Both the position numbers and the translations under genes were made by a program. From Methylosinus trichosporium OB3b (lineage in GTDB: Bacteria; Pseudomonadota; Alphaproteobacteria; Rhizobiales; Beijerinckiaceae), in assembly GCF_002752655.1 (NCBI RefSeq), contig NZ_CP023737.1:558001-622000 (forward strand): a DNA stretch of 64,000 bases. The letters are read 5' to 3'. This document shows, one piece after another, positions 5,348 to 62,383 of the stretch. The notes beneath the pieces are model-generated. The model did no database searches. It was not told the origin of the DNA and saw nothing but the letters and a program-made list of their open reading frames with translations. How positions within the stretch are numbered: position 1 is the stretch's first letter; each line of letters begins with the position of its first letter.

Positions 5348-6277
5348 ATGTCCATGACGCGCCGCGCATTTCTCGCCACCGCCGTCAGCGGCGCGGCGTC
5401 GGTTCTCGCGAGCACGGCCTATGGCTTCGGCTTCGGACCGATGCTGGCGCCGCGCGTCGCGCGCTATCGAGTCGCGCCGCGCGATTGGCCGAACGGCTTC
5501 TCGCTCGAGATCGCCGCGCTCTCGGACTTGCACGCTTGCGATCCCTTCATGTCGATCGAGCGGATCGAGGGAATCGTCGAGCGCATGAACGCGCTGCGGC
5601 CGGATGTGATCGTGCTGCTCGGCGATTATGTCGCCGGCATCCGCCGCCGCCTCGCGACGCCCATTCCTTCCGCCGATTGGGCGCGCGCGCTGTCACGTCT
5701 GTCGGCGCCGCTCGGCGTCCATGCAATCCTCGGCAATCATGATGTCTGGGACGATCTCGTCGTGCAGCGCGACGGCGGCGGAACCACGCATTCGCGCCGG
5801 GCGCTCGAGGCCAATGGCGTGCCGGTCTATGAGAACGAGGTCGCGCGCCTGCGGAGCGGCGATCGCTCCTTCTGGCTCGCCGGTCTCGCCGATCAGCATG
5901 CGATTCCGGTCGGACGTCTGCGCTGGCGCGGCTTCGACGATCTGCCGAAAACGCTCGCCGCGGTCACGACCGACGACCCGGTGATCCTGCTCGCGCATGA
6001 GCCCGACATTTTCGCGAAGGTTCCGAATCGCGTCGCTCTGACGCTCAGCGGGCACACGCATGGCGGCCAGGTGCGGCTGATGGGCTGGTCGCCCTATATC
6101 CCGTCGCGATTCGGCAATCGCTACGCCTATGGACATATCATCGAGAACGAGAAGCACCTCATCGTCTCCGGCGGCCTCGGCTGCACCATGCTGCCGTTCC
6201 GGTTCGGCGTCCCGCCGGAGATCCTGCACATCAGGGTCGAAGCCCCGGGCGTGACGCGGTCATTGTCCGGACCGTAA
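5348..6277 (+). CDS. Tat-exported metallophosphoesterase (YkuE/YaeI type)
   Basis: The 309-residue protein starts with a twin-arginine leader (SMTRRAFLATAVSG), so export in folded form is likely. The calcineurin-like blocks follow in order: SDLHACD (Asp60, His62), LLGDYVAG (Asp93), GNHD (Asn130-His131), LLAHEPD, and LSGHTHGGQ near residue 235. These bind a dinuclear metal centre. The TRRAFL leader with the GHTHGGQ box places it with YkuE/YaeI phosphodiesterases, several of which act on envelope lipid intermediates; the substrate here is unknown. The ATG at 5348 is followed by a second in-frame ATG two codons later. Confidence 0.88.
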   Translation: MSMTRRAFLATAVSGAASVLASTAYGFGFGPMLAPRVARYRVAPRDWPNGFSLEIAALSDLHACDPFMSIERIEGIVERMNALRPDVIVLLGDYVAGIRRRLATPIPSADWARALSRLSAPLGVHAILGNHDVWDDLVVQRDGGGTTHSRRALEANGVPVYENEVARLRSGDRSFWLAGLADQHAIPVGRLRWRGFDDLPKTLAAVTTDDPVILLAHEPDIFAKVPNRVALTLSGHTHGGQVRLMGWSPYIPSRFGNRYAYGHIIENEKHLIVSGGLGCTMLPFRFGVPPEILHIRVEAPGVTRSLSGP

Positions 6278-6307
6278 CGAGTCAGAACCTTTGCAATGAA
6301 AGGCGGC

Positions 6308-6461
6308 CGTCATTGCGAGGAGCGAAGCGACGAAGCAATCCAGAGCCGCAGGGCGGATTCTCGACGGTCTTCCCTTCGCGACGCGCCCGCATTGCGGCGA
6401 GGAAATCGCCCCAGCAATCGCCCCGCGGCTCTGGATTGCTTCGCTGCGCTCGCAATGACGG
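6308..6461. repeat. Palindromic dispersed repeat, family A (copy 1)
   Basis: The left arm contains GTCATTGCGAG and GAAGCAATCCAGAGCCG (6309-6348) and the right arm is its inverse, CGGCTCTGGATTGCTTCGC and CTCGCAATGACGG (6426-6461). The interior includes ACGGTCTTCCCTTCGCGACG. A second unit with the same arms and interior lies at 6802-6951 and a partial unit at 62257-62300. Very similar CATTGCGAG/CAATCCAG repeats are widespread in Rhizobiales genomes. Confidence 0.85.
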
Positions 6462-6470
6462 TGCGAGCCC

Positions 6471-6761
6471 TTATCGCGCGAGATCTTCGTAGAGGTCGCT
6501 CCATATCGGATTCATCGATTCGATCAGCGCGAGCTTTTGACGCCGCGATCCGCCCTTCAGCTGCTTCTCTCGTGCGATCGCTTCAACCATCCGCTCATAA
6601 TATTCGTAACACACGAGGAGCTTGCATCCGTACCGGGTGGTGAATCCCGGCGTGAGGCCTTCACGATGCTGATAGGCGCGCTGCGACAAATTCGACGTGA
6701 TGCCCGTATAGAGTGTTCCGTTCCGGCTGCTGGCGATGATGTAGACGGCAGGCTGCTTCAC
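6471..6761 (-). CDS. GIY-YIG nuclease-superfamily protein
   Basis: This 96-residue single-domain protein carries the GIY-YIG core: VYIIASSRNGTLYTGITSNL holds both strands (VYI and YTG), followed by the conserved arginine in RAYQHREG and the later Y..YE....A..REKQLKG helix with its Glu-containing ending. Such short proteins belong to the YhbQ/URI-like group; nuclease activity is expected but the biological role is not established. The start is GTG at 6761 with AAGGTAGAG upstream. The gene sits exactly between two copies of the family A palindrome, each within about 40 bp, so gene and repeats may form a unit. Confidence 0.85.
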   Translation of the reverse strand: MKQPAVYIIASSRNGTLYTGITSNLSQRAYQHREGLTPGFTTRYGCKLLVCYEYYERMVEAIAREKQLKGGSRRQKLALIESMNPIWSDLYEDLAR

Positions 6762-6801
6762 CGAGACTCTACCTTGCGGCTCTGCTCGTAATGACAGCTG
6801 T

Positions 6802-6951
6802 CGTCATTGCGAGCGTAGCGAAGCAATCCAGAGCCGAGGGACGGAATCTCCACGGTCTTCCCTTCGCGACGCGCGCCCATATTGCGACTAGGGAAACAGC
6901 CTTGCAAACGCCCCGCGGCTCTGGATTGCTTCGCTACGCTCGCAATGACGG
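6802..6951. repeat. Palindromic dispersed repeat, family A (copy 2)
   Basis: Same architecture as 6308-6461: left arm with CGTCATTGCGAGCGTAGCG and AAGCAATCCAGAGCCG, interior containing ACGGTCTTCCCTTCGCGACG, right arm CGGCTCTGGATTGCTTCGC and CGCAATGACGGC. It is in direct orientation relative to copy 1. It ends about 45 bp from the gltB stop and could fold into a strong hairpin at the gltB 3' end. Confidence 0.85.
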
Positions 6952-6997
6952 CCGCCTGCCACAGCGACGAAGAAACCCTTCATCCGCTGCGCTTCCA

Positions 6998-11656
<4,659 letters not shown>

Positions 11657-12024
11657 GGCGGCGTCTCCCGGACAAGATCGGGGCCGCTCGGCCGCTTTGC
11701 CGCGTCGCGCCCCGTTTTTAGCGTCGAATTCGTCCGACCGCTCCATCCTGTCCCGGCGCGAGGCAGAATGGTCAGCAAGGCTGACATATCAACGGCCAAT
11801 ATATTTGCCAGATTTCCGCAGCCGGCACAAGCGATCCGCGGTGCAGTTTTCAAGCCGCGCCGCCGGGAGCTCGGCGACGCGACCCGGGTGTCCCCACGGC
11901 TGATGGATCGCTTCGCTGCACTCGCGTGAGAACGGAGCGCCCGATTGCGACGGCGCGCCGGCTGGCGTAAGAACGCGCCGCGCCCTCGCCCTGCGGCGAG
12001 AGGCCCGCGAGCGAGGGACCGCTT
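11657..12024. other. gltB / HIT-gene divergent intergenic region
   Basis: Non-coding stretch between divergent starts. It holds the palindrome described separately at 11771-11785. On the minus strand TTGATA followed after 17 bp by ATTCTG overlaps this palindrome and is a weak promoter candidate for gltB. Nothing else was recognised. Confidence 0.4.
11771..11785. promoter_or_regulatory. Candidate operator upstream of gltB
   Basis: GTCAGCAAGGCTGAC is a perfect 6-bp inverted repeat around a 3-bp centre, followed by ATAT. It lies 115 bp upstream of the gltB start. The ilvE upstream region has GTCAATATAGCTGAC followed by GTAT, with the same GTCA-N7-TGAC geometry. The binding protein is unknown; an amino-acid-responsive regulator such as Lrp/AsnC is a guess. 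Confidence 0.45.
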
Positions 12025-61941: not shown

Positions 61942-62104
61942 TGGTCCTTGGCGGTGAGCGGAGCGAGGCCGACAGCGGGCGTTCGGCTGAGCCGTGTTTT
62001 ATAGGATGTGGGAGCAAAGGCCAGCGGGGACGAAAAGGGGGAGCGAAATGCGGAGCGTGACCAGGAAAAGAGTTCGCCGAAACACCCAACGCCGAGGCGA
62101 TCCG

Positions 62105-62230
62105 ATGACGCGGAGAGAGAAAGGCGGCGTGAGTAAAGAGACCTTCGACGACTTCCTCGCCGGCCAAGGCGTGTTGGAAACCTGCGAAGATCACGCGATC
62201 ATGGAGTTGCTCGCCGAATCGATTGCTTAA
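62105..62230 (+). pseudogene. Truncated Xre-type antitoxin
   Basis: A 41-residue frame, MTRREKGGVSKETFDDFLAG onward, ends ...ELLAESIA. F.DFLA..G.LE...A.AI..LLA is the start of small Xre/Fis-family antitoxins, which normally continue with a helix-turn-helix. The stop falls about 27 bp before a family A repeat, and neither toxin nor HTH is present. The weak ribosome-binding site is GAGGCG. Confidence 0.45.
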
Positions 62231-62256: not shown

Positions 62257-62300
62257 CGTCATTGCGAGCGGAGCGAAGCAATCCAGAGCCGCGGGGCGGC
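62257..62300. repeat. Family A palindromic repeat (partial copy)
   Basis: CGTCATTGCGAGCGGAGCG and AAGCAATCCAGAGCCGCGGG match the left arm of the units at 6308 and 6802. The right arm is missing: sequence passes directly to GGCGGCTCCTGATTCGAG. It follows the truncated antitoxin gene. Confidence 0.8.
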
Positions 62301-62383
62301 TCCTGATTCGAGATAGGCGCTGAGCCGAAGCCATGCGCGTTCAATCACGCGAGAGTTCAAACTTTGAAAAGGAATTACCCTCC

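Follow-up and report, generated by a model that had tools for sequence, protein, structure and literature searches.

A small GIY-YIG nuclease gene and the CGTC-tagged palindromic repeats that flank and co-vary with it in Methylosinus trichosporium OB3b and other bacteria

One of the two large superfamilies of bacterial REP sequences is distinguished by its CGTC tag (Di Nocera, De Gregorio, Rocco 2013, PMC3733652). As characterized in that survey, its members carry an unpaired CGTC, a hairpin with the stem starting from AT and a CCA tail, reside in intergenic regions and are mostly arranged as inverted dimers. Four families with stems of 8–9 bp and loops of 4–5 bp were delineated there, the CGTC-1 type being equated with neisserial dRS3, and all CGTC REPs were described in 2013 as having no dedicated transposase (PMC3733652). 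GIY is absent from the main text of the survey, and among the matches listed in a literature search over titles and beginnings of abstracts, with preprints and most subscription journals outside it, there was no paper joining GIY-YIG with REPs. In REP/RAYT (TnpA_REP) systems, known as REPtrons and REPINs, the enzyme gene is described as bordered by repeats, co-variation of the two is reported and solo dimers occur (PMC8266576, PMC3733652); bulged and perfect palindromes are read, according to the same literature, by two co-evolved groups of RAYTs (PMC8266576). A repeat with a dedicated enzyme is a known principle, and the locus described here would be new in the use of an unrelated enzyme.

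The window analysed is a stretch of 64,000 nucleotides from the genome of M. trichosporium OB3b. Between the genes of a calcineurin-like metallophosphoesterase (5348..6277, plus strand) and of the glutamate synthase large subunit (6998..11746, minus strand), which are given for context only, it contains a GIY-YIG nuclease gene (6471..6761 including the stop codon, minus strand, 96 aa, GTG start) placed between two CGTC-tagged dimers. Dimer 1 (6308..6460) is composed of a long arm (6308–6343), an 87-nt interior and a short arm (6431–6460), with the outer ends CGTC...GACG. Dimer 2 (6802..6950) has two short arms (6802–6831 and 6921–6950) with an interior between them. Complementarity of the arms covers 25 nt at 96% in dimer 1 and 47 nt at 91% in dimer 2, while in direct orientation the two dimers share a 62-nt segment with 89% and an 80-nt segment with 85% identity. 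Together with the PF01541 match of the protein this bears out the preliminary description of the locus as a GIY-YIG gene bracketed by two repeat units with common arms and interior. The third, one-armed unit reported there near 62257 is also real: it is a dispersed copy spanning 62257..62303 on the plus strand and consisting of one short arm and the spacer AGAGCCG... The “truncated antitoxin” next to it could not be upheld, being a 60-aa open reading frame (62048–62230) with no Pfam match.

The protein scores 56.1 bits against PF01541 at a cut-off of 22.6, and this was its sole match in the domain search; no IS200/IS605-type HUH tyrosine transposase was recognized. In an alignment of 34 homologues Y18, R28, H32 and N84 are invariant and Y7 and E65 are preserved in at least 90% of sequences, so that the Tyr, Arg, His, Glu and Asn residues typical of the GIY-YIG superfamily, where they have catalytic roles, are all conserved in this domain. 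A profile built from nine homologues found the UPF0213 structures PDB 1zg2 (E 1.5e-7) and 1ywl, matching them over most of the domain. Both solved chains are named hypothetical proteins, and to our knowledge no repeat association has been reported for the UPF0213 family. Across the whole genome PF01541 has two matches, the gene of the window and a 958-residue frame, which is presumably UvrC. No match was obtained in the NCBIfam search and none of the families of PADLOC models was recognized (0 matched), giving no sign of anti-phage defence, while a single marginal and partial match in PHROGs (E 0.0089) was disregarded. Of 39 pairs taken from five groups of relatives 35 had usable dS, and in these dN/dS of the nuclease was 0.02–0.16, i.e. 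the nuclease is under purifying selection.

The stem sequence of the arms residing beside homologous genes is highly variable, and what they have in common is the frame: CGTC, a hairpin AT...AT and then CCA(G). Three classes of units were distinguished: the bulged class T (ATTGCGAG...GCAAT), to which the repeats of the window belong, class a with a 4-nt loop (mostly GAAG, GAAA or GCAG) and class b with a 5-nt loop (mostly CTTGA or CTTGT). No class fits 46 of the 443 units found near the genes. A further hairpin type, TCATCCTGAGCGAAG...GAAGGATCC, was observed beside one more GIY-YIG gene (L326) and may represent a fourth class. The class labels rest on a detector that accepts units only if three or more stem positions pair in addition to AT, while the pairing test required no pairing. 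In this test the stem positions of class a were Watson-Crick paired in 44, 47 and 48 of 48 distinct arms, with 15.7, 20.1 and 38.9 expected, and those of class T in 138 of 144 cases, with 103.8 expected. Hairpin pairing is, thus, maintained by compensatory changes. The family of the window shares with the CGTC-tagged superfamily the unpaired CGTC end, the stem starting from AT, the CCA tail and the dispersed multi-copy occurrence, mainly as inverted dimers. Classes a and b have the same 8–9 bp stems and 4–5 nt loops as the CGTC-tagged REPs, whereas the stem of class T, with its 5-bp outer part and bulge, sets it apart from the four described families.

In the 5.18-Mb genome of M. trichosporium OB3b the window unit gave 118 BLAST matches on both strands, and the exact pattern GTCATTGCGAG-N2-20-GCAATCC was found in 99 arms genome-wide, with none for the reversed control pattern. 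Close pairs of arms at 30 loci (L003–L032) had the orientation (+,-) in 12 cases, (-,+) in 4 and (-,-) in 1. All 12 outward-facing dimers, two of which are those of the window, end with CGTC and GACG, and their flanks beyond these ends vary. A long arm is paired with a short one in 11 of the 12, and the spacer is about 20 nt long in 8 of the 10 dimers other than the window's two. In the four inverse (-,+) pairs the CGTC ends point inward. As to target-site duplications of the MITE/DDE kind, the flanks of the 12 dimers share words of just 4–5 nt in nine cases and none in three, and no clear duplication is seen. One dimer folded as single-stranded DNA had -43.2 kcal/mol against -16.5 for shuffled sequences. 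Two single arms of class T folded no better than shuffles, while one single arm of class a and one of class b folded better than these. When compared with Rfam families, the long inverted repeat gave sub-threshold miRNA models alone, which were judged to be due to chance. Five class-b arms (GTCATGGCCGGGCTYGTCCCGGCCATCC) are also present in this genome, three on contig C1 (1183408, 3502154 and 3502315) and two on C2 (30226 and 39182), in the absence of a second small GIY-YIG gene.

Association of the nuclease with the repeats was estimated on two sets of loci with one and the same detector, which requires TCAT or TCAC, three or more additional stem pairs, and ATCC or ACCC. The first comprised the best 80 of at least 581 confirmed candidate loci in named genomes. 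The second comprised 100 loci of the order: the first 81 rows below that of the window among the matches listed, less one (G072, contig 28), and 20 hand-picked lower rows. A unit no farther than 400 bp from the gene was registered at 70 of the 80 and 71 of the 100 loci, and units on both sides at 50/80 and 40/100. For control genes, which were at least 100 aa long and at least 1.5 kb away from the nuclease gene and were called with a simple ORF caller without correction for gene size, the corresponding values were 114/669 and 24/308 for any side and 12/669 and 1/308 for both sides, so that the enrichment of both-sided loci has Fisher values of 3e-45 (best 80) and 1e-26 (order). The density of units near the genes also exceeded that in DNA more than 1 kb away, 20-fold in the best 80 (228 per 61,914 bp near, 197 per 1,079,316 bp far) and 24-fold at the order loci (193 per 78,087 bp near, 72 per 709,300 bp far). 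The same was registered in the phylum of a metagenome genome titled Planctomycetaceae, where a homologue is present in 36 of 294 genomes: units were found at 15 of 30 loci, on both sides at 7, with 42 per 23,310 bp near and 2 per 37,548 bp far (ratio 34), although three of these 15 loci have units resembling chance hairpins or another type. Units often lie just past the gene, at a median of 28 bp beyond the matched part, and at 44 of the 94 both-sided loci the innermost pair is (+,-), with the gene within an inverted pair.

Loci with no strict unit numbered 10 of 80 and 29 of 100, and the association drops with the distance from the query: in the order set, units accompany 65 loci of the upper 80 and 6 of the lower 20. 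Of the 40 rows labelled as having none, 21 retain at least a loose fragment of an arm, and 19 show nothing. The check proposed in the preliminary description, whether units flank the GIY-YIG gene more often than by chance, has a positive outcome, and the opposite outcome named there, homologues without repeats and units equally frequent beside random genes, was looked for and is not what was found. The association is real and general, spreading over several bacterial classes and the sample of one further phylum. In a metagenome genome titled Ignavibacteria (G159) the clear CGTC units listed were all on contig C145, which is probably the contig of the nuclease (L125) and may be foreign to the bin.

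Repeats and nucleases also vary together. For the 72 order loci with units (71 and that of the window) protein identity correlated with stem similarity (r 0.27), as it did for pairs from different families (r 0.24), with 0 of 2000 permutations as high in both cases. In the nuclease tree, which has 95 columns, 185 rows and most forks open, all 61 class-T loci fall into one clade of 71 rows with no class a or b locus (SH-aLRT 91, not starred), two class-T rows shorter than 60 aa, pieces of broken congener genes, having been left out. The other ten rows of this clade are one unclassified and nine with no strict unit; six of these nine contain GTCATTGCGAG with a single mismatch, and the remaining three contain shorter pieces only. 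Records of the class-T loci are titled Alphaproteobacteria, Burkholderiales, Gallionella, Thiobacillus, Rickettsiales and Bdellovibrionales, and Legionella-type records also occur in the clade, within its group of rows that have no strict unit. The number of label changes on the tree was 7 for class T versus 51.5 after shuffling (0/500 as low), 16 versus 40.5 for class a (0/500) and 23 versus 28.9 for the weakly clustered class b (1/500). Thus, repeat classes are distributed in accordance with the nuclease phylogeny. Paralogues of one genome may have differing flanking repeats, as in G058, G060, G068 and G072; in G058, for instance, these are of the types CCCCGC-GAAA, TTGCCGGG-CTTGA and GGTCTGC. 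A record titled Frankia sp. RB7 (L097) may be mislabelled or mixed, since it groups tightly with Bradyrhizobium nucleases and has class-T repeats.

Matches in the collection of plasmids came from 33 records, and 10 of the 12 examined had convincing units within 400 bp: Neisseria gonorrhoeae (two records), Azospirillum, Sinorhizobium (two, with S. meliloti among the named cases), Rhizobium (two), Shinella, Photobacterium and Aeromonas. A Planktothrix record had no units within 400 bp, and that of Spirosoma a single doubtful one. Some of these PLSDB “plasmids” (L337, L342 and L341) look chromosome-sized: 2.17 Mb in Neisseria, 4.9 Mb in Aeromonas and 3.7 Mb in “pSymB” of S. meliloti. In both N. 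gonorrhoeae records the nuclease gene resides among units of the CGTC-1 type, i.e. the neisserial dRS3/NIME repeats, which belong to class a, whereas those of the window belong to class T. On plasmid AZO_p3 of Azospirillum lipoferum 4B (L338:2351-2969) the nuclease with its units interrupts the suf row between sufB and sufC.

A small GIY-YIG homologue is patchily distributed, being present in 87 of 150 genomes of the order, and its presence goes with the abundance of repeats. The median number of CGTC arms of all classes, counted by exact patterns, was 16 where the homologue is present (87 genomes) and 0 where it is missing (63 genomes), and at least 10 arms were found in 56/87 versus 12/63 genomes (Fisher 2e-8, kinship ignored). 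Twelve homologue-bearing genomes hold no arm by these patterns. A tight coupling of the two is argued against by the ten genomes of the order with at least 16 class-T arms: in five of them (G035, G049, G097, G112 and G143) none of the loci included in the tree, which omit the single weak homologue of G112 and three of the four in G049, belongs to the class-T clade; repeats, therefore, can persist without a class-T nuclease. Ten genomes of the genus contain 99 (the window's), 92, 73, 25, 19, 9, 6, 5, 3 and 2 class-T arms. The nuclease is split into two pieces in those with 92 and 73, and is intact in those with 25 (79% identity) and 5 (63% identity).

Empty sites in close relatives, which the preliminary description also proposed to look for, were found in all five relatives of the genus that share the junction between the metallophosphoesterase and glutamate synthase genes. 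Homology to the window ends there at 6257/6258 and resumes at 6997/6998, with 12–13 bp between the conserved flanks, and therefore the cassette is absent from this site in 5/5. The region without counterpart (6258..6997) includes about 50 bp outside the dimers on either side, and the change may have gone in either direction. The junction between the genes of dihydroxy-acid dehydratase and rlmJ differs among genomes of the genus, with three dimers and the nuclease in G150 and arms accompanied by a broken nuclease in G153, whereas G155 has no nuclease there, only a diverged dimer and an additional arm. In six other genomes of the genus, including that of the window, the stretch compared around rlmJ contained neither a match to the dehydratase nor the nuclease nor any strict unit. 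The three dimers of G150 (L149:860-1490) lie head-to-tail beside the nuclease and recur about every 237 bp, a local array resembling a BIME. Closely related Rhizobium plasmids have two dimers beside the gene (L344 and L350) or one (L349). Most of the nuclease region of Rhizobium sp. CIAT894 was covered, among 145 plasmid records matching its flanks, solely by CIAT894 itself, and in its relative BT04 the neighbouring peptidase gene is present without the nuclease and without the IS4 transposase that adjoins it in CIAT894. Dating of dimers against the relative G154 was limited to the few of 28 dispersed loci that fall within the 800 kb compared, where L005 alone hints at extra DNA around the copy.

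Based on these data we consider it probable that the window contains one copy of a widespread two-part element, in which CGTC palindromic repeats are accompanied by a dedicated, co-varying GIY-YIG endonuclease that would recognize their hairpins and aid their spread. Sequence comparison over many bacteria suggests, then, that this nuclease is the missing partner enzyme of the CGTC-tagged REP family. The REP/RAYT-like unit proposed in the preliminary description is supported as far as layout, co-variation of enzyme and repeat, dispersed dimers and the copy-number link (kinship ignored) are concerned, while movement or cutting of the repeats by the nuclease is what we infer. As in REPtrons, the enzyme gene is bordered by its cognate repeats, and bulged and perfect palindromes form separate groups, as described for REP/RAYT systems. 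RAYTs, however, are HUH tyrosine transposases with a GTAG tag, whereas here the protein has a GIY-YIG domain and the tag is CGTC. Since enzyme family and tag both differ, we do not class the element as a REPtron.

The nuclease may recognize the folded state of a repeat, either single-stranded or extruded, by its unpaired CGTC, AT...AT hairpin, CCA tail and individual stem and loop, and would cut the base of the hairpin on the side of CGTC. Another copy would then serve to repair the break or be joined to it. GIY-YIG enzymes are hydrolases, and the mobilising step would therefore need host repair. Dimers could in this way be copied to new sites in trans, giving solo dimers and a MITE- or REPIN-like population, and the nuclease gene might occasionally be carried along with the flanking units. 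It is also conceivable, though here we are more doubtful than convinced, that CGTC REPs from dRS3 of Neisseria to the alphaproteobacterial families are non-autonomous parts of an unrecognised mobile element with a minimal GIY-YIG nuclease as its sole protein, which would spread by hairpin cleavage and host repair without a strand-transferase, nuclease and hairpin having co-diversified across bacterial phyla and acquired many different specificities.

Free-standing GIY-YIG homing endonucleases belong to the same catalytic family and may likewise owe their spread to a target. A homing-type gene would insert into pre-existing CGTC REPs as its target without spreading them, which agrees with its location within an innermost (+,-) pair at 44 of 94 both-sided loci and with the existence of repeats without the gene. 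A homing enzyme would be expected to cut alleles lacking its gene; sites of that kind do occur in the genus. The 96 aa of the nuclease, however, leave no room for a second DNA-binding domain, and its target would be a multi-copy palindrome. Homing also does not account for the higher copy number of repeats where the nuclease is present, or for the position of the gene beside whole dimers rather than inside one in the window and in Rhizobium tumorigenes, and the different repeat classes of paralogues within a genome would be unexpected unless each paralogue had its own target. Thus, even though REPs do serve as targets for insertion sequences (PMC1525189), we regard such an origin as rather unlikely. 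Patchy presence (87/150 genomes), differing genomic sites within one genus and more rather than fewer repeats in the presence of the nuclease also make it unlikely that it is a domesticated housekeeping enzyme, which resolves or trims extruded REP hairpins to limit their harm and uses the flanking copies as recognition or autoregulation sites. What fits this role is the low dN/dS (0.02–0.16) and the fact that some GIY-YIG enzymes, SLX1 among them, are structure-specific nucleases.

Two readings that make the coupling incidental appear far less probable. If the hairpins were ordinary transcription terminators or mRNA stabilisers, their frequent position close behind the gene, at the 28-bp median given above, would be natural, the more so as REPs as a class are described as mostly downstream of coding regions (PMC3733652). 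Other genes of the same stretches, however, rarely carry units (24/308 and 114/669 on any side), units occur on both sides of the nuclease gene and their class follows the nuclease tree, so that a terminator-only function was judged very improbable. It is hardly credible either that nuclease and repeats simply pile up in permissive intergenic gaps. Both are indeed intergenic at the loci examined, yet the density of units is 20–34 times higher near the gene than in the far DNA of the same stretches, coding and intergenic together, nuclease and repeat are matched by class, and in one case the insertion lies between sufB and sufC. Chance or a hot spot was judged an unlikely origin on the strength of this density and of the comparison with control genes.

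The survey of 2013 left open which enzyme, if any, makes CGTC REPs, and a small expressible candidate can now be named, together with many enzyme/repeat pairs matched by nature, on which specificity could be tested. If the proposed partnership is true, a second and chemically different kind of REP-partner enzyme would exist beside RAYTs, a common class of bacterial intergenic palindromes would be explained, and the small GIY-YIG proteins would provide a family of minimal nucleases that differ in the hairpins they recognize.
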